31,604 bases of DNA from a virus. The stretch is taken from IMG/VR virus record IMGVR_UViG_3300046171_000025, positions 1-31,604 of that record. One strand, 5' to 3'. Each line of letters starts with the position of its first letter. Within the stretch, counting starts at the first letter, position 1. The notes below the pieces were generated by a model. The model worked only from the letters and a program-made list of their open reading frames with translations. It made no database searches and was not told where the DNA came from. The translations under genes were made by a program, and so were the position numbers. Below are positions 4,587 to 31,604 of the stretch, piece after piece.

Positions 4587-6075
4587 CGTCTTCCTCTTCC
4601 CCACCTTGTATCTTAGCTTCTACAGGTAATTTTTGACCAAATGGTTGATAAGCTAATTCAATATCATATTGTTTAGCCAATTCTATTTCTTTTTGATGTT
4701 GTTCAAATAGTTCTTCAGTATCTCTACCATAAGAAGCAGAAATATCAGAATAGGTAAGTGTTCCATTTTGTAAACCTATTACATTAGCTTGCATTTCTTT
4801 TAGTGGGTCAATCCAAGCAAAACTTCTTGGAATGTAATTTACTGACCTAGCAAACTTATCATATTTACCCATTGGTAAATTGATATATCCAGTTGATATA
4901 GCCATTTCTAACCATGATTGGAATACTGGATTTACAAAATGCTCAATTACAAATTGTTGATATATCTGATACATACTTCTATCTTCTAAAGCACCTTGTC
5001 TTATAGAAGAATAATTAACTGAAGTTAAATCATTAGATAATGAATGATAAGAAATATTTAAACCTGATGCGATACTTCTTAAAACACTAGTTGTAAAAGA
5101 ATCAAAAGCAGATGTTGGATGGGTGGGGTCAAATGCTTTGAAGTCCATACCTTGAGGTAGTTGCTCAAATACACCAGCTTGAGCGTTCATTGTTGGATTA
5201 AATGTATCTTCGTATTCACCATCGCCAACATAGCCATCACCATCAGGTGAGGTAAAGAAACCCATCTTAGATGCACCAACTCTAGCTGCAACTATCTCAG
5301 CTTCTAAATAACCATTTAACATTTTCACATTAGCCATAGCTGTAGCAACCAAAGAAACACCTCTAGTTTGTTCTGCTCTAGTAGGTAGGTAAGCATGGAT
5401 AATCTCATCAGCAGGTACTCTAATGTGTTGTGCTTGACTTAAATAAACTCTATCGTAGGGATGGTCTTTATATAAATGATAAGCAACTGGTCTGTCATAC
5501 TTATCTACTTCAACACCCATTTTGATTCTATTGCCAGTAGCTTTATAAACATCATTTTTATTTTCATCTAAATGGTCTGCTTCTAAAAACTGTAACTGGA
5601 AACCAAAAGGCGAATTGCTGTCTTTTATTTTCCTGATTAATACTTCACCATCTCTACATAGTGATTCAACAAATATTTTCTGACAATCTAAGAATGATAG
5701 TCTGCCATTAGTTGTACAACTTCCGACTTGACCCCATTCTCTCCAAGCACGTTCAATGAGCAGGTTAGCTCCAATGTCTAAAGAACCATTATCGTTCCTA
5801 GCCTTAGAGCTAACTCTTATGCCATGCTTACCGATAACATTAGATACCATCAGGTTTAAGTATCTAGCAATATAGCTATCGTTTCTTGCTAATTCTCTTG
5901 CTCTATCTCTTAGAATTCTTATGTTATCTTTTATTTCAGCATCAGCACTTGTAGATGTGGTAACAAAATCTGCAAACAATCTTCCAGTGTTAGCTCCTGT
6001 ATAGCTTCTTCTATATGCTTGTCTTTTCTTTTTCTTAGGTTCGTTAATGCCTAATATTCTGTTATACCATGCCAT
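4579..6075 (-). CDS. Portal protein, lambda family (gpB-like)
   Basis: This 498-aa protein begins MAWYNRILGINEPKKKKRQA. It contains RARELARNDSYIARYLNLMV (about 57-76), then NVIGKHGIRV, the WREWGQVG segment and a long region with RIASGLNISYHSLSNDLTSV-type sequence (SIASGLNISYHSLSNDL, YSSIRQGALEDR). These are hallmarks of the lambda-type portal family, the dodecameric ring at the capsid vertex through which DNA is packaged and the tail attached. Length fits the family. It starts in a TAATG junction with the gpW-like gene and overlaps the capsid polyprotein start, indicating one late operon. Confidence 0.93.
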   Translation of the reverse strand: MAWYNRILGINEPKKKKRQAYRRSYTGANTGRLFADFVTTSTSADAEIKDNIRILRDRARELARNDSYIARYLNLMVSNVIGKHGIRVSSKARNDNGSLDIGANLLIERAWREWGQVGSCTTNGRLSFLDCQKIFVESLCRDGEVLIRKIKDSNSPFGFQLQFLEADHLDENKNDVYKATGNRIKMGVEVDKYDRPVAYHLYKDHPYDRVYLSQAQHIRVPADEIIHAYLPTRAEQTRGVSLVATAMANVKMLNGYLEAEIVAARVGASKMGFFTSPDGDGYVGDGEYEDTFNPTMNAQAGVFEQLPQGMDFKAFDPTHPTSAFDSFTTSVLRSIASGLNISYHSLSNDLTSVNYSSIRQGALEDRSMYQIYQQFVIEHFVNPVFQSWLEMAISTGYINLPMGKYDKFARSVNYIPRSFAWIDPLKEMQANVIGLQNGTLTYSDISASYGRDTEELFEQHQKEIELAKQYDIELAYQPFGQKLPVEAKIQGGEEEDDG

Positions 6076-6692
6076 TATGTGTAACTCTTAGGAGTTGAGC
6101 CAGCAACTTTACCAAAGTTTACTTTAATAGTATTTCCTGACCCACGTTTATTTTTAATTCTTTGTATTTTAACTTCTTTAAGATATTCAGCTTTGTATCT
6201 ATCTCTAAAAGTTAATAGTTCGTCTATAGACATTCTTGATAATGACCTACCAGCTATAGACATAGATGATTGGTCAATATTTGCTCTGTTCTCAATAACT
6301 GCTTCAATGCTATCTAAAACAATCTTTGCATGACTTCTAACTGAAGCAGATGTAGTTGCATAATTATCTTGAACTTCTACAAAACCTTCTTCTAATTTAA
6401 CTCTTGCAGAATCAGAAGTTCTAGTTATATAAGAAACCCAATTGTAATTACCTTTTGCATAAGAAGATGTATTAGTAGCTTCGATTAGGTAAGTGTCACC
6501 TGACTCAGTTGCAGTTAATGTAAAGTTAGAAGCAGTGCTTCCATCTACAAGATTAAATTCATAAGATAATGAATAATCTGCTACTGGATAATCGTTAGCT
6601 AAATCTTCTCTTTTCCATGCCCAATAGTCTCCTAACTGAAGTTCAGTAGGAACTTGGGGTGGATAATTTGTTGAATCAAATTTGTTGCTCAA
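6075..6692 (-). CDS. gpW-like head-completion protein with N-terminal beta domain
   Basis: The 205-aa product begins MSNKFDSTNYPPQVPTELQL, with an Ig-like beta-rich N-terminal part (about 1-115) and a helical C-terminal part (about 120-205). The C-terminal part contains SIDELLTFRDRYKAEYLKEV, which resembles gpW-type proteins. In lambda, W sits between the terminase A and portal B genes; the position here is the same apart from the inserted cassette. gpW plugs the portal after packaging. The start is a TTG at 6692 supported by ATGAGG 7 nt upstream; no in-frame ATG offers a better choice. It is probably the first gene of the late operon. The N-terminal domain has no function I can assign. Confidence 0.65.
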   Translation of the reverse strand: MSNKFDSTNYPPQVPTELQLGDYWAWKREDLANDYPVADYSLSYEFNLVDGSTASNFTLTATESGDTYLIEATNTSSYAKGNYNWVSYITRTSDSARVKLEEGFVEVQDNYATTSASVRSHAKIVLDSIEAVIENRANIDQSSMSIAGRSLSRMSIDELLTFRDRYKAEYLKEVKIQRIKNKRGSGNTIKVNFGKVAGSTPKSYT

Positions 6693-6713: not shown

Positions 6714-6759
6714 TAGATATATCTACATCTAACACTAATGTGCATTAGGCTCTTGTCAA
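6714..6759 (-). promoter_or_regulatory. Probable late promoter region with two palindromes
   Basis: On the minus strand a perfect TTGACA (6754-6759) is followed 16-17 nt later by a weak -10 (TAGTGT/AGTGTT, 6731-6737). Between them sits CTAATG-CA-CATTAG (6735-6748), a 6+6 inverted repeat placed like an operator. A second, perfect 12-bp palindrome, TAGATATATCTA, occupies 6714-6725. The region lies just after the strong terminator and before the gpW-like gene, so it is the natural place for late transcription to start. The weak -10 suggests activation by a phage or host factor binding the palindromes. Confidence 0.5.
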
Positions 6760-6771
6760 TATTAAAAAGGG

Positions 6772-6804
6772 AAAAAATAAAAAAGGCTCAATTAAGAGCC
6801 TTTT
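6772..6804 (-). terminator. Strong intrinsic terminator
   Basis: On the transcribed strand AAAAGGCTC (6804-6796) pairs with GAGCCTTTT (6789-6781) around a TTAATT loop, giving a 9-bp stem that runs into TTATTTTTT (6780-6772). It follows the small gene ending at 6824 and is the only clear rho-independent terminator I found. It should end the early/middle unit and insulate it from the late promoter. Confidence 0.9.
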
Positions 6805-6823
6805 ATGATTTTGGTGGGATTTT

Positions 6824-7030
6824 TTAGTTTGTTGCTTTCACTGCAATAGCATCTGTTGGCAACTTTTCTAAAATTGTTTCATCTTTTGATAAAAATAAAC
6901 ACATACCTTTAGGTTTCATAATTGAATTTTGATAAAAGTATCCTTCTTCATCATGCATTAAACTAATACATGGGTCTCCTAGATACTTAACGATATCTAT
7001 TGTTTTTTTATTTATTGTTTCTGTTTTCAT
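6824..7030 (-). CDS. Small unknown protein, second gene of the inserted cassette (68 aa)
   Basis: From ATG 7030 the product is 68 aa, beginning MKTETINKKTIDIVKYLGDP, with CISLMHDEEGYFYQNSIMKP in the middle and an end at AIAVKATN. I do not recognise the family. The start is fixed by AAGGAG 6 nt upstream; the longer reading frame to 7054 would translate a leader that is copied, also untranslated, in front of the upstream gene. It lies between terL and the gpW-like gene, under promoter P1 and followed by the terminator at 6772-6804. This is the layout of a moron cassette, so it may serve the infected cell or early takeover rather than virion structure. Confidence 0.75.
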   Translation of the reverse strand: MKTETINKKTIDIVKYLGDPCISLMHDEEGYFYQNSIMKPKGMCLFLSKDETILEKLPTDAIAVKATN

Positions 7031-7031
7031 G

Positions 7032-7054
7032 TTTGACTCCTTTTTGTTTAACAT
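7032..7054 (-). repeat. 23-bp leader repeat, copy 2
   Basis: An exact 23-bp direct repeat of 7273-7295, carrying the AAAAAGGAGTC ribosome site and ATGTTAAAC leader. Each copy sits directly before the start of one cassette gene (7030 and 7271). This suggests the two genes arose by, or were joined through, duplication of a translation-initiation module. Confidence 0.9.
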
Positions 7055-7055
7055 A

Positions 7056-7271
7056 CTATTTATTATTAAGTTTCCATTCTATATTGTGATTGACTTGTCT
7101 TGTTACTTGATTAACTTCGTACACCTTACCAGTATGAATATGTTTGACATATCCAACTAAACCAGCTTCATCATCAGTAGTTGGCATATCGATAAACTCT
7201 CCTAAATAATTTGCTGGTGCAAAGTTTTCCATTTCTAGCATCATTTCTAATGTGCTTACTCTTGTTACCAT
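7056..7271 (-). CDS. Small unknown protein, first gene of the inserted cassette (71 aa)
   Basis: From ATG 7271 the product is 71 aa, beginning MVTRVSTLEMMLEMENFAPA, followed by a YLGEFIDMP segment and AGLVGYVKHIHTGKVYEVN. I do not recognise it. A frame open to 7310 would start inside the -10 box of P1, so the internal ATG with AAGGAG 7 nt upstream is the real start. The shared 23-bp leader and the sequences NYLGEF here and KYLGDP in the next gene hint at distant relatedness, though the proteins differ otherwise. It is the first gene after P1 and likely strongly expressed early. Confidence 0.75.
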   Translation of the reverse strand: MVTRVSTLEMMLEMENFAPANYLGEFIDMPTTDDEAGLVGYVKHIHTGKVYEVNQVTRQVNHNIEWKLNNK

Positions 7272-7272
7272 T

Positions 7273-7295
7273 TTTGACTCCTTTTTGTTTAACAT
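7273..7295 (-). repeat. 23-bp leader repeat, copy 1
   Basis: Identical to 7032-7054. It contains the ribosome site for the gene starting at 7271 and lies just downstream of the P1 -10 element, so it forms the 5' untranslated leader of the P1 transcript. Confidence 0.9.
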
Positions 7296-7341
7296 AAGCA
7301 TATTATACACATATAAATATATAAAATGTATATAAAATTAG
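7291..7341 (-). promoter_or_regulatory. Promoter P1 (copy of the early promoter)
   Basis: On the minus strand TATAAT (7307-7302) lies about 12 nt before the leader ATGTTAAAC. The upstream AT-rich block TATACATTTTATATATTTAT nearly matches that of P2 at 18169-18217, differing mainly by small indels. The arms ATGTGTATA and TATACAT form an imperfect inverted repeat. It would transcribe only the two cassette genes down to the terminator. Confidence 0.72.
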
Positions 7342-7355
7342 TAAAAATAGTGCAA

Positions 7356-9176
7356 TTATTTCCAAGAAGTAGCGAAATTACCTCTATTTATACCTCTTTG
7401 AGGTCTATTTTGTGGTTTTTCTTTAGGTTTTGACTCTCTTGTAAGTATTTTGTTTTCAATAGAATCATAGTTAGGATTCAAGATATAGATAGCAGCAAAG
7501 TTATAAACCAATGTATCAAGTGCTTCGTTTCTTGGTCTTACCTGCTTCCAAACAAGTGATTTTCTACCTCTCACAAACTTTGTGATTCTTTTTTCTGCTG
7601 TAAGCTGCTTAAAGTATTCTTCATCAAGGTCTGAGCAGAAATGCAAAGTAGTATTCTCAGGTTCAGCAGCTAATCTAGCAAATATAGCTTCTTTAGCACT
7701 ATCAGAACCAACACCATAGAGAACAGCTTTATTCTTTCCAACAAATGTAGGTCTATTAGCTATTGGTTTACCTGCTGTTGATAAACCTTTGACTGCAAAC
7801 ACCCTTCTAGCTTGTCGTGGTTTAGTAAATTGATAACATTGATTAGTGTGATGTCCGCCTGAGTCGATTGTGCAACAAGATATAGGTATTAATCTTTCAG
7901 ATTCAGTTTTAAATCGTTTCTTTAGATAAGCATCTAAATCATTCCAAACATTCATAGCATTTGGGTCACCCCAAAATATCTTGTAATCACAAACCCATGC
8001 TTCATAGTTCTTACCCCAACCAACTAGCTGTAATTCTAATCTGTCTTTTTGGGTATCAACACCAGCAGTTAAAACCAAAACATCTTCAGGTATGGTTGTG
8101 TAATCATAATTCAATCTACGTTCTAGTAATGTTTCATATTCAACAGCTTCACCTTGTTCTTCCCAAGATTCACCAAGAGCAGTATTAATCCAAGTCTTTA
8201 ACATCTCAGGATTCTTTTTAGCTTCAAGAAATGATTTAGCCATGTCTGCCCAAGTAGACCAAACTGAATATAGTTCTGATATATGAAATCCTGCTGTATC
8301 TGATTTAGATTCTGATGCTATCCATTCACCATGTTTTAACATCCATTGTTTTTTTGATTCATCTATAACTGAACCACAATGTTCGCAGGCATAAGAAGCT
8401 GTCTCAGGTTTATCTTCATCCCAAACTACATTCTTCCATTTTAAAACTTGCTTCTCTTCACATTCAGGACAAGGAACATTGTAGTAGCGTTTATCTGATT
8501 CTTCAAAAGCAGTTTCTATTCTTGATAGTCCTTTGATTGTAGGGGTAGAGCACATATATATCTTTTTATTCCAAAAGGTAGTTGTTCTTTTAGTTGCAAG
8601 AGATATTGGGTCACCTTCTGCTCCTGCTGATTGCTCATATCTGTCAACTTCATCTGCTAAGACAATTCTTATTGGTCGTGAGGCGAGCCCTGATGCAGAA
8701 TTAGAACCAACAATGTTTAAATTACCACCTGCAAACTTCTTAGATAAAACTGTATTACCACTATCTCTGCTTCTTGGGTCTTTTACACAATCTCTTATCT
8801 TTTCTGAATCTCTAATCATAGTAGCAAGTCTATCTTTACTAAATGCTTGAGCCATTTGTAGAGTAGGTTGCATGATTAACATTGGAGCTGGGTCTTGGTC
8901 TATGTAGTAACCAATGACATTTAGCAGAATCTCAGTAGCACCAACTTGAGCAGACTTCATAAATACTATTCTTTGAATATCAGGGTCATTAAAAGAATCC
9001 ATTATCTCTCTTTGATATGGAGCTCTATCAGTTCTCCATGCACCTGCTTCTGCTGAAGATTCAGGAGATAATCGTCTGTAGTTATCTGACCAGCTACTAA
9101 TCTTCAGATTGGGTGGTGGAGTCCATGTTTGATTCGTCTCCTGTATCACCTTTTCTATATTTTTGAGGTATTCCAT
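7356..9176 (-). CDS. Terminase large subunit, GpA family
   Basis: This 606-aa motor/nuclease cuts and pumps phage DNA into proheads. A Walker A variant KSAQVGATE (about 74-82) and Walker B IVLADEVDR (about 171-179) form the ATPase. Two CxxC pairs (Cys236/239 and Cys264/267) suggest a zinc knuckle. The nuclease domain shows AGVDTQKDRLEL (Asp374), CTIDSGG (Asp438) and EALDTLVY (Asp554). These features and the length match lambda gpA. It overlaps the small subunit gene by 80 nt; the ATG at 9176 lacks a clear ribosome site, so a later start such as GTG 9149 is possible. It is separated from the portal by a terminator-bounded cassette, unlike lambda. Confidence 0.95.
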   Translation of the reverse strand: MEYLKNIEKVIQETNQTWTPPPNLKISSWSDNYRRLSPESSAEAGAWRTDRAPYQREIMDSFNDPDIQRIVFMKSAQVGATEILLNVIGYYIDQDPAPMLIMQPTLQMAQAFSKDRLATMIRDSEKIRDCVKDPRSRDSGNTVLSKKFAGGNLNIVGSNSASGLASRPIRIVLADEVDRYEQSAGAEGDPISLATKRTTTFWNKKIYMCSTPTIKGLSRIETAFEESDKRYYNVPCPECEEKQVLKWKNVVWDEDKPETASYACEHCGSVIDESKKQWMLKHGEWIASESKSDTAGFHISELYSVWSTWADMAKSFLEAKKNPEMLKTWINTALGESWEEQGEAVEYETLLERRLNYDYTTIPEDVLVLTAGVDTQKDRLELQLVGWGKNYEAWVCDYKIFWGDPNAMNVWNDLDAYLKKRFKTESERLIPISCCTIDSGGHHTNQCYQFTKPRQARRVFAVKGLSTAGKPIANRPTFVGKNKAVLYGVGSDSAKEAIFARLAAEPENTTLHFCSDLDEEYFKQLTAEKRITKFVRGRKSLVWKQVRPRNEALDTLVYNFAAIYILNPNYDSIENKILTRESKPKEKPQNRPQRGINRGNFATSWK

Positions 9177-10047: not shown

Positions 10048-10169
10048 TTTTTCTTTTCCTTTTTCTTTTTGCCAAATATTTTATCCCAATTAGCATCAAT
10101 CTTTTTCTTATCTTCTTTCCTTCTTTTACTACCCTTACCACCTTCTTTAACATCATGCCACTTAGACAT
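10044..10169 (-). CDS. Very small lysine-rich phage protein, 41 aa
   Basis: This 41-aa ORF reads MSKWHDVKEGGKGSKRRKED and then a KKKIDANWDKIFGKKKK-type tail. The pattern (a short start, GGKGSKRR, NWDKIFGKK) recurs in tiny proteins of many phages, whose function I do not know. The ATG at 10169 overlaps the stop of the PAPS-reductase-like gene, and its stop overlaps the GTG of the nuclease gene, so it fills the gap exactly. The extreme charge suggests nucleic-acid or partner binding, as inference only. Confidence 0.75.
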   Translation of the reverse strand: MSKWHDVKEGGKGSKRRKEDKKKIDANWDKIFGKKKKEKKK

Positions 10170-10920
10170 CTTCTTCATCCTTAATACAAAAAATACCACA
10201 CTCAAAATTATAAGATTTTAAATCTCTACCTTTTGCATCTGCTGGCAGTTCTTTTAAAGGTATTCTTTTGCCTTTGTATCTAACCAAATTAGCACCTAAT
10301 TCTTCTGATAACTGCATACGTTTTTTAAATATATCAGGGAATGTGTTTCTTACTAAGTTCCAATAAGTAGGTGAACTAGCCTTAACACAACCAATACAAT
10401 TAGCATTGGGGTAACCAAAAGAATATATTTCAGGCAGTTTAATTCCAGCATCTAATAAAATATCAAAACAACCTTGTTTAGTAATACCCTCATCAATCAA
10501 TACAGGTAATAAATTATCCCTTTGTGATTCTCTAAACCTAGTAGCTCTTTTTTCTTCATCAGCAGTAAAACCAAGAACGATATAATCTGTTGGATTATTA
10601 ATTTCCCAAACTTGTCTAGCATGTTTTTTTAAATGTGTAGTACATGGTGCACCAAAATTACCTGCCATATATTTTCTTTCTTTCCAAACTGTTTCACATG
10701 AATAATCAGGAAACTTAGGATTGATTGCAAACTCAATCTTAATACCTAACCATTGTTCAACATCTTTTAAAAACCTTTGATTATCTTTGTGCTCTTCTTT
10801 GATAGGGTTGTTTACTATCTTTATGTGATTATCAGAACCAAAAAGTTCTATAGTTTTTTTTGCTGCTACAGCACTTGCAGCACCACAACTAAACCAAACT
10901 GTAATATTTTTATCTTTCAA
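10162..10920 (-). CDS. PAPS-reductase-like PP-loop protein
   Basis: The 252-aa product belongs to the adenine-nucleotide alpha-hydrolase superfamily. A PP-loop variant VWFSCGAASAVAA occupies residues 8-20, followed by VNNPIKEEHKDNQRFLKDVE and a GAPCTTHLKKH segment (Cys93). Additional cysteines lie at 175/178 (NCIGC) and 241/245 (ECGIFC), possible metal or Fe-S ligands. Such proteins are frequent in phages; roles proposed for relatives include sulfur assimilation and DNA or tRNA sulfur modification, and none can be chosen here. No dnd partners are present. It starts with TTG 10920, supported by AAAGGAAAG just upstream, and overlaps the preceding coiled-coil gene by 11 nt. Confidence 0.82.
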   Translation of the reverse strand: MKDKNITVWFSCGAASAVAAKKTIELFGSDNHIKIVNNPIKEEHKDNQRFLKDVEQWLGIKIEFAINPKFPDYSCETVWKERKYMAGNFGAPCTTHLKKHARQVWEINNPTDYIVLGFTADEEKRATRFRESQRDNLLPVLIDEGITKQGCFDILLDAGIKLPEIYSFGYPNANCIGCVKASSPTYWNLVRNTFPDIFKKRMQLSEELGANLVRYKGKRIPLKELPADAKGRDLKSYNFECGIFCIKDEEDV

Positions 10921-17904: not shown

Positions 17905-18143
17905 TATGCACACTCCTTAGATTCTTTTATGCATCTATCAATTATTGGAGTTGCATCTTTGTGTGCAAGACCAAACTCTCTTTTTAAAAGTTCAAAAGCA
18001 AGATTAAAAAAGTGATTTGCTTTTTCTACATTCCACTCAAGTCTTCCTCTCATTCCATTGTCAACTAAATCTTGAACCTTTAGCATATGAACTTCCCACT
18101 CTAAAGTATCAAAATCTTTTTGTTTGTTTTCTAGGTTTCTCAT
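17904..18143 (-). CDS. First gene of the early operon, unknown, 79 aa
   Basis: From ATG 18143 the product is 79 aa, beginning MRNLENKQKDFDTLEWEVHM, mostly helical, with HFFNLAFELLKREFGLAHKD and an end at CIKESKECA. I recognise no family. An open frame to 18173 would start at or near the transcription start of P2, so ATG 18143 with AAGGAG 9 nt upstream is preferred. Being first behind P2, it should be made early and in quantity. Confidence 0.72.
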   Translation of the reverse strand: MRNLENKQKDFDTLEWEVHMLKVQDLVDNGMRGRLEWNVEKANHFFNLAFELLKREFGLAHKDATPIIDRCIKESKECA

Positions 18144-18168
18144 GTTATTTAACTCCTTAATTTTATTT

Positions 18169-18217
18169 AACATACCCCTATTATATACATAAATATATAA
18201 ATGTATACAATTATATG
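18169..18217 (-). promoter_or_regulatory. Promoter P2 (early operon)
   Basis: On the minus strand TATAAT (18185-18180) is followed by AGGGGT and the leader ATGTTAAATAAA. Upstream, ATGTATA (18201-18207 on the plus strand) and TATACAT (18184-18190) form a perfect 7-bp inverted repeat with a 10-nt spacer, covering the region before the -10. The block is nearly the same as P1 at 7291-7341, down to the leader. It should drive the genes from 18143 towards the terminase genes. No terminator separates it from the late/lysis operon upstream. Confidence 0.75.
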
Positions 18218-18243
18218 AAAATATTTTAATTTATTTTTAGGTG

Positions 18244-31127: not shown

Positions 31128-31604
31128 TTCTTATCTGCCTATTCTTTTCCTCTAAATATGCTAACCATCCTGTAAATTCGGATAAGGTCATCTTTTCTTC
31201 TAGTTCCTGAAGTGTGCAATGCAACATTTCAGCTAGATAGTATTTAGCAAATAAGTCCTTATCCTCTACTACTTTTTTGCTTGTTGTTCTACACTTGGAG
31301 CAGACATTATTTCAGTTGCAACTCTTGCAAGTACATCTTTGTCTACACCATTCATAAGTGTATGTTTATCTGATAGGTCAAATACTTTCTCACCATCAGA
31401 ATCTAAGGCTTTATATATTAAGCAATAAGCCATCAATGCTACATCATCGTCTTTTGCATATCGTTGCAATTTAGACATTTCTGCTAGCGTTAATGGCTTT
31501 GCATATACTTTAAGAACCTCATCTCCATCACTCCACTCAGGTATCTCAATCTCTTTGATTTCTAAAGAATCAAAATGAGCTTTTGCCTTATCTATAAGTT
31601 TCAT
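31117..31604 (-). CDS. Tail assembly chaperone GT (-1 frameshift product)
   Basis: If ribosomes slip -1 at A AAA AAG (31272-31278), the 111-aa G protein continues VVEDKDLFAKYYLAEMLHCT, then LQELEEKMTLSEFTGWLAYL and ends RQIRNGN. This gives a 162-aa product that ends at TGA 31117-31119, inside the tape measure start. The T part has no start codon with a ribosome site of its own and shows the TLSEFxxWLAYLEE helix typical of gpT. In lambda, G and GT bind the tape measure and tube subunits in a fixed ratio set by slippage. The shift is inferred from sequence. Confidence 0.78.
31269..31604 (-). CDS. Tail assembly chaperone G
   Basis: The 111-aa product begins MKLIDKAKAHFDSLEIKEIE with EWSDGDEVLKVYAKPLTLAE and MSKLQRYAKDDDVALMAYCL, the pattern of lambda gpG-type tail chaperones. 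It acts only during assembly, coating the tape measure and recruiting tube subunits. The stop codon TAG follows the slippery heptamer directly. The ATG is the last three bases of the window; in a circular genome it follows the tube stop by 2 nt. A longer N-terminus cannot be excluded if the window is only a cut. Confidence 0.85.
   Translation of the reverse strand: MKLIDKAKAHFDSLEIKEIEIPEWSDGDEVLKVYAKPLTLAEMSKLQRYAKDDDVALMAYCLIYKALDSDGEKVFDLSDKHTLMNGVDKDVLARVATEIMSAPSVEQQAKK
31272..31278 (-). promoter_or_regulatory. Programmed -1 frameshift site A AAA AAG
   Basis: In the G frame the codons GCA AAA AAG TAG give the heptamer A AAA AAG in the correct X XXY YYZ phase, ending at the stop codon itself. 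This is the same slippery heptamer as in E. coli dnaX. The -1 frame is open from here for 51 codons. I could not identify a clear downstream pseudoknot or an upstream Shine-Dalgarno stimulator. Confidence 0.85.

Follow-up and report, generated by a model that had tools for sequence, protein, structure and literature searches.

Two small phage genes between terL and the head-tail joining gene are probable cargo of a hypervariable slot with an early-type expression frame

Two small genes separate terL from the head-tail joining gene

The stretch of DNA analysed here (the window; 31,604 bases) is the viral record IMGVR_UViG_3300046171_000025, from a marine phage. On its minus strand the genes follow in the order terS, terL, gene B, gene A, an intrinsic terminator, the head-tail joining gene and the portal gene (Table 1). 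Genes A and B, the subject of this work, had been described in an earlier reading of the window, made from its letters alone (the sequence-only reading), as a moron-like cassette with its own promoter, identical ribosome-site leaders and a terminator, interrupting the terminase-gpW-portal block. Both genes lie where that reading placed them. The leader 20-mer TTAAACAAAAAGGAGTCAAA has exactly two copies in the window (7292-7273 and 7051-7032), and no such repeat was obtained in 100 shuffles with up to 3 mismatches allowed. Both genes have a further in-frame start upstream, at 7310 and 7054, but in each case AAGGAG is placed for the inner ATG. A terminator scan of the window returned 5 terminator-like sites, with 0.9 expected, one of them directly after gene A.

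From the single sequence, the putative promoter would be a weak prediction, since a scan of the window gave 4 promoter-like sites, i.e. fewer than the 12.7 found in shuffles. It becomes a strong one by comparison with relatives and with the head of the early operon: a TATAAT-like box precedes the leader in nearly all relatives that carry an insert. The claim of an own promoter thus held by comparison, not by the scan. The claim that the head block is interrupted also held, in that the insert splits terL from the joining gene, with the correction that the latter belongs to PHROG 5774 and matches no gpW model of Pfam. A separate TTGACA-type promoter for the joining gene is conserved 3′ of the terminator and is present also in insert-free relatives. 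The palindrome at 6714-6725 was considered as a repeated operator and rejected, because it is found in a single copy in the window, about as expected by chance. The guanine plus cytosine (GC) content is 27.1% in gene A (6th percentile of 210-bp windows) and 32.4% in gene B (38th percentile), with 33.6% for the genome.

Table 1. Coordinates of the cassette, its borders and the early-operon head in the window
Feature	Position	Strand	Remarks
terL	7356-9176	-	left border of the slot; PF05876/PF20454, phrog_15
Putative cassette promoter: TATACA, 19 nt, TATAAT (-10 box 7307-7302)	7302-7332	-	TATAAT-like variants in relatives; the early-operon head promoter is its sister
Leader 1 with ribosome site ATGTTAAACAAAAAGGAGTCAAAAATG, through the B start codon	7269-7295	-	exact 20-mer repeat
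Gene B, 71 amino acids	7056-7271	-	early-operon relatives 81-89% identical; dN/dS ~0.12-0.25
Leader 2, through the A start codon; the TAG stop of B runs into its TATGTTAAAC	7028-7054	-	20-mer repeat
Gene A, 68 amino acids	6824-7030	-	sole slot gene of L001, L002 and L003 as well
Intrinsic terminator AAAAGGCTCTTAATTGAGCCTTTT plus T run	6781-6804	-	terminator scan and relatives
Joining-operon promoter (TTGACA 6759-6754) and palindrome TAGATATATCTA (6714-6725)	6714-6759	-	also in empty sites
Head-tail joining gene, TTG start	6075-6692	-	right border of the slot; phrog_5774, E 2e-32
Early-operon head: sister promoter and leader	18139-18243	-	second variable site in relatives; alignment to the cassette

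The gap between terL and the joining gene is either empty or filled in relatives

Relatives were retrieved through terL and the joining gene, and were in part picked by leader and terminator patterns, so that the terL-selected set is the less biased fraction. Across viral contigs the gap had a bimodal length, 86-94 bp (empty) or 417-1057 bp (filled), and it was filled in 36 of the 76 terL-selected relatives. Universal presence, which would have spoken for essential structural genes, was thus not found, about half of this set having no insert. Genomes with terL directly joined to the next gene, as the sequence-only reading had proposed to look for, do exist: in the Roseobacter phages CRP-821, CRP-811 and CRP-406 the two genes abut (gap about 0). 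Furthermore, the slot is empty in genome-collection relatives with 95%, 78% and 56% terL identity, the 95% one being a SAR86 single-cell contig. The terL-joining gene gap is the only insertion site seen in the head block, because the spacing of all other neighbour pairs is constant within a few bases, or a few tens of bases in single cases (a count that includes some contigs twice).

Filled and empty gaps also differ in their signals. An intrinsic terminator is present in all 43 distinct filled gaps and in none of the 33 distinct empty ones, and the exact 20-mer leader in 33 of the 43. In three filled loci (L043, L056, L079) the layout is kept, with leader and terminator sequences both different.

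Two side observations concern the borders and the state of the slot. In L131 the cargo starts with ATT instead of ATG and is otherwise nearly intact; it is possibly a decaying cassette. In seven loci (L090, L094, L103, L105, L110, L116, L117) terL is ~60% identical, the joining gene 92-98% identical and the last terL residues are conserved; whole terL alleles seem to have been swapped at the junction with the joining gene.

Cargo turns over faster than its flanks diverge

Each of the 43 distinct filled gaps contains a single gene or a pair, and these genes fall into 22 orphan families, mutually unrelated at E 1e-5. When the empty/filled label is mapped on a terL tree with 69 distinct loci, 20 changes are required, and well-supported branches force at least 15 of them; shuffled labels need 22.5 on average, and 84 of 500 shuffles were as low as 20. 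The empty/filled state therefore carries no signal on this tree, on which cargo identity takes 38 changes. The clearest pair is the near-isogenic L062 and L063, ~99% identical over 1.8 kb upstream and 100% over 1.1 kb downstream, where a 675-bp insert region in one and an 88-bp gap in the other is almost the only difference. Conversely, L001 and L132 carry an identical gene A next to joining genes that are just 73% identical. These comparisons show that the slot acquires, loses and exchanges cargo at a much higher rate than its flanking genes diverge.

One identical 62-nt promoter-leader 5′ arm precedes 8 cargo types, and each of cargo types C1, C2, C4, C11, C12, C13, C17 and C18 stands behind two to four promoter variants. 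It can be deduced from these two facts that promoters and cargo have entered new combinations, and that the leader is where they are joined. The C-terminal ~65 residues of C18 have relatives among the hypothetical proteins of large phages of Pseudomonas, Serratia and Shewanella, a match that gives no function.

The cassette frame resembles the head of the early operon

Aligned to the rest of the window, the cassette promoter-leader found its best match at the early-operon head (18243-18139) with a score of 67, whereas the best score in 2000 dinucleotide shuffles was 41. By this alignment the cassette frame can be identified as a sister copy of the early-operon head. That head, compared in 68 distinct relatives' sequences, is itself variable: in most of them promoter and leader stay constant and the first genes behind them differ. 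In six loci it carries the exact leader of the cassette. Other cargo families were also found directly behind early-type leaders, in the early operon itself, ahead of terS on the opposite strand, or in a different type of phage (L289, L312), with identities of up to 88-96%.

In L044, L058, L111 and L115 the cargo-family gene upstream of terS, on the opposite strand, lies behind a similar promoter-leader, and this position is a possible third slot. Eight contigs (L273, L290, L295, L302, L307, L328, L332, L334) have two exact copies of the early-operon leader 0.8-1.3 kb apart, resembling the doubled leader of the window.

Genes A and B have separate histories and no recognisable relatives of known function

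Gene A fills the slot alone in L001, L002 and L003, and its differences among relatives are 7 synonymous and 0 non-synonymous. The relatives of gene B are the first gene of the early operon in L004 and L005, where A is absent, and the ratio of non-synonymous to synonymous substitution rates (dN/dS) is ~0.12 and 0.25. These patterns indicate that A and B are real genes under purifying selection. B was apparently inserted ahead of the leader of A, because the TAG that ends B in the window is the one found before TATGTTAAAC in the A leader of the L001 type.

As the sequence-only reading had noticed, the two proteins match nothing recognisable: searches of Pfam, PHROGs, NCBIfam and PADLOC gave nothing beyond weak, chance-level matches. 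No match was obtained by tblastn against 50,697 phage records, nor did 151 genomes from around the SAR86 cell contain either protein, and a search of solved structures by sequence gave no convincing match. The suggested structure prediction was run with AlphaFold, and its confidence (pLDDT, predicted local distance difference test, 53-54) was too low for a fold search.

The phage is probably a SAR86 phage related to the CRP-822-type family

The best phage matches of terL are CRP-821, CRP-822, CRP-831, CRP-823, CRP-811 and CRP-406 (49-50% identity), which share the order terS-terL-joining gene-portal-capsid with the window. Judged by terL and gene order, the phage would belong to or near the CRP-822-type family. 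PMC12629253 defines this family, emphasises the conservation of its packaging module, predicts SAR86 as host for its low-GC subgroup V and states that almost all members lack an integrase; the terL-joining gene slot is not mentioned in the section consulted. The genes at the window ends (1-392 and 31269-31604) are neighbours 4 bp apart in relatives, including the L274 contig, so the record is probably a complete, circularly permuted genome. The window encodes exonuclease VIII-like and RusA-like proteins.

The host is probably SAR86. In the SAR86 single-cell contig CACEDS010000004.1 (L274; L282-L285), ~50 kb of non-phage genes run into a phage of this family, at 50.5-72.7 kb. This joint supports SAR86 as host; either integration of the phage or an artefact of assembly may explain it, though the family mostly lacks an integrase. 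A gene of the phosphoadenosine phosphosulfate reductase type (phrog_424) lies at 10162-10920 of the window; PMC12629253 lists this type as an auxiliary gene of the family.

Discussion

We consider it likely that A and B occupy, as its present cargo, a hypervariable moron slot in which an early-type frame is retained and the cargo is swapped by recombination. The elements of the frame are all present in the sequence between the terL stop codon and the joining-operon promoter: a predicted promoter of early type, a 5′ leader whose ribosome site is strong, and a predicted intrinsic terminator; in the window cargo B would have been placed before cargo A, each with its own leader. Early transcription of the cargo is probable, given that the frame and the early-operon head are sister copies. 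The anatomy suggests that the terminator halts the early transcript, and read-through from terL, before the late genes, which would restart at the joining operon's own promoter. Exchange would most likely occur by homologous recombination in co-infection, through the near-constant leader and terminator arms, and may be helped by the exonuclease VIII-like protein. The weakest step is the role of the cargo, which could be host takeover or counter-defence. As no cargo has a recognised domain, this role rests on analogy, and it is about an even call whether A and B are small early proteins of that kind.

Several points weigh against this explanation. The relatives are all metagenome contigs, which limits the sampling. 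Ten of the 43 filled gaps lack the exact leader, and 3 of these also have a different terminator. The spacing of the -35 and -10 boxes is 19 nt in the window and 18 nt in the commonest version among relatives. Gene A was not found outside the slot, and no cargo gave an anti-defence or host-takeover domain in Pfam, PHROGs, NCBIfam or PADLOC. Finally, we infer both the early timing and the activity of the terminator from the DNA sequence.

Among other explanations, the one we would take most seriously, although we regard it as rather unlikely, keeps the same slot and lets its cargo mainly serve lysogens or exclude other phages (superinfection exclusion, defence) rather than the lytic cycle. High-turnover P2/P4 hotspots between conserved genes hold anti-phage systems (PMC9122126), and a family member adjoins host-like genes in the SAR86 single-cell contig; the early-type promoter argues against such a role, as does the outcome with PADLOC, which gave weak, single-member matches and no recognised anti-phage system among the cargo. 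It is improbable that A and B are late proteins of the head block with a structural or accessory packaging role (e.g. decoration, head-completion or terminase-helper proteins). Their position, on the same strand between terL and the head-tail joining gene, would suit such proteins, and decoration proteins are known morons (PMC4378225), but about half of the relatives have no gene there, the cargo comprises 22 unrelated families, the promoter is of the early-operon type and the relatives of B are early-operon genes.

A site-specific mobile element, integron-like or a homing cassette with its own recombinase target, would account for the sharp limits of the slot, with the terL stop codon on one side and the next promoter on the other, and for constant ends around a variable middle. 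The constant ends, however, look like promoter, leader and terminator rather than recombinase sites, no endonuclease was recognised among the cargo, and no integrase or resolvase family was found in the genome (tyrosine integrase PF00589 and serine recombinase PF00239 gave no match, with positive control searches). An integron-like site was rejected on the lack of these recombinases, and the mobile-element explanation as a whole has little probability. Least probable of all is a toxin-antitoxin or other obligate two-gene module: the genes are small, adjacent and share one promoter and one terminator, yet A occurs without B (L001, L002, L003) and B without A (L004, L005), and each has its own leader and a separate history. 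Because A and B occur apart, a toxin-antitoxin pair was rejected as largely refuted.

We conclude that the moron interpretation of the sequence-only reading is largely supported, and that two features go beyond it: the hypervariability of the slot, with its 22 families of cargo, and a link to the early operon. The functions that this reading suggested, such as anti-defence or exclusion, stay conjectural. A broader proposal, which we put forward tentatively and at slightly less than even weight, is that of a recombinase-free plug-in system. The standard early promoter-leader and the terminator would double as expression signals and docking homologies, and small early genes would be traded between the early-operon head and the insulated slot in the packaging block, and between co-infecting phages.

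SAR86 is abundant and uncultivated, and to our knowledge little is known of how its phages overcome their host. The slot offers a ready list of candidate host-takeover or counter-defence genes that can be found by the frame alone. It also makes moron exchange testable, the joints being readable in leader and terminator.

Morons are coding regions with a promoter and a terminator inserted between adjacent genes, and their acquisition has been called mysterious (PMC4378225). The window fits this description, as do the lambdoid and other phage morons reviewed there, in having extra gene(s), a promoter and a terminator between genes that adjoin in related phages. In contrast to lambdoid morons, the slot has a near-constant frame common to about 20 unrelated cargo families, and this frame is a sister of the phage's own early-operon head. 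With the P2/P4 hotspots, loci of 1-5 kb with high turnover (PMC9122126), it shares a small size, rapid turnover and a place between two conserved phage genes; it differs from them in being smaller still (0.4-1.0 kb), with one or two orphan genes, in phages without integrase, without recognisable defence systems and with near-constant promoter and terminator arms. Mu-like phages of Pseudomonas have accessory regions, among them the anti-CRISPR locus (PMC4378225), which likewise are short variable open reading frames at fixed loci of otherwise collinear phages. Unlike these, neither A nor B matches a helix-turn-helix (Aca-like) family; moreover, no common recombination sequence was found there, whereas leader and terminator are shared here. 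What is new in the present case is a standardised early-type frame, many orphan families in one slot, and the sharing of that frame with the early-operon head.
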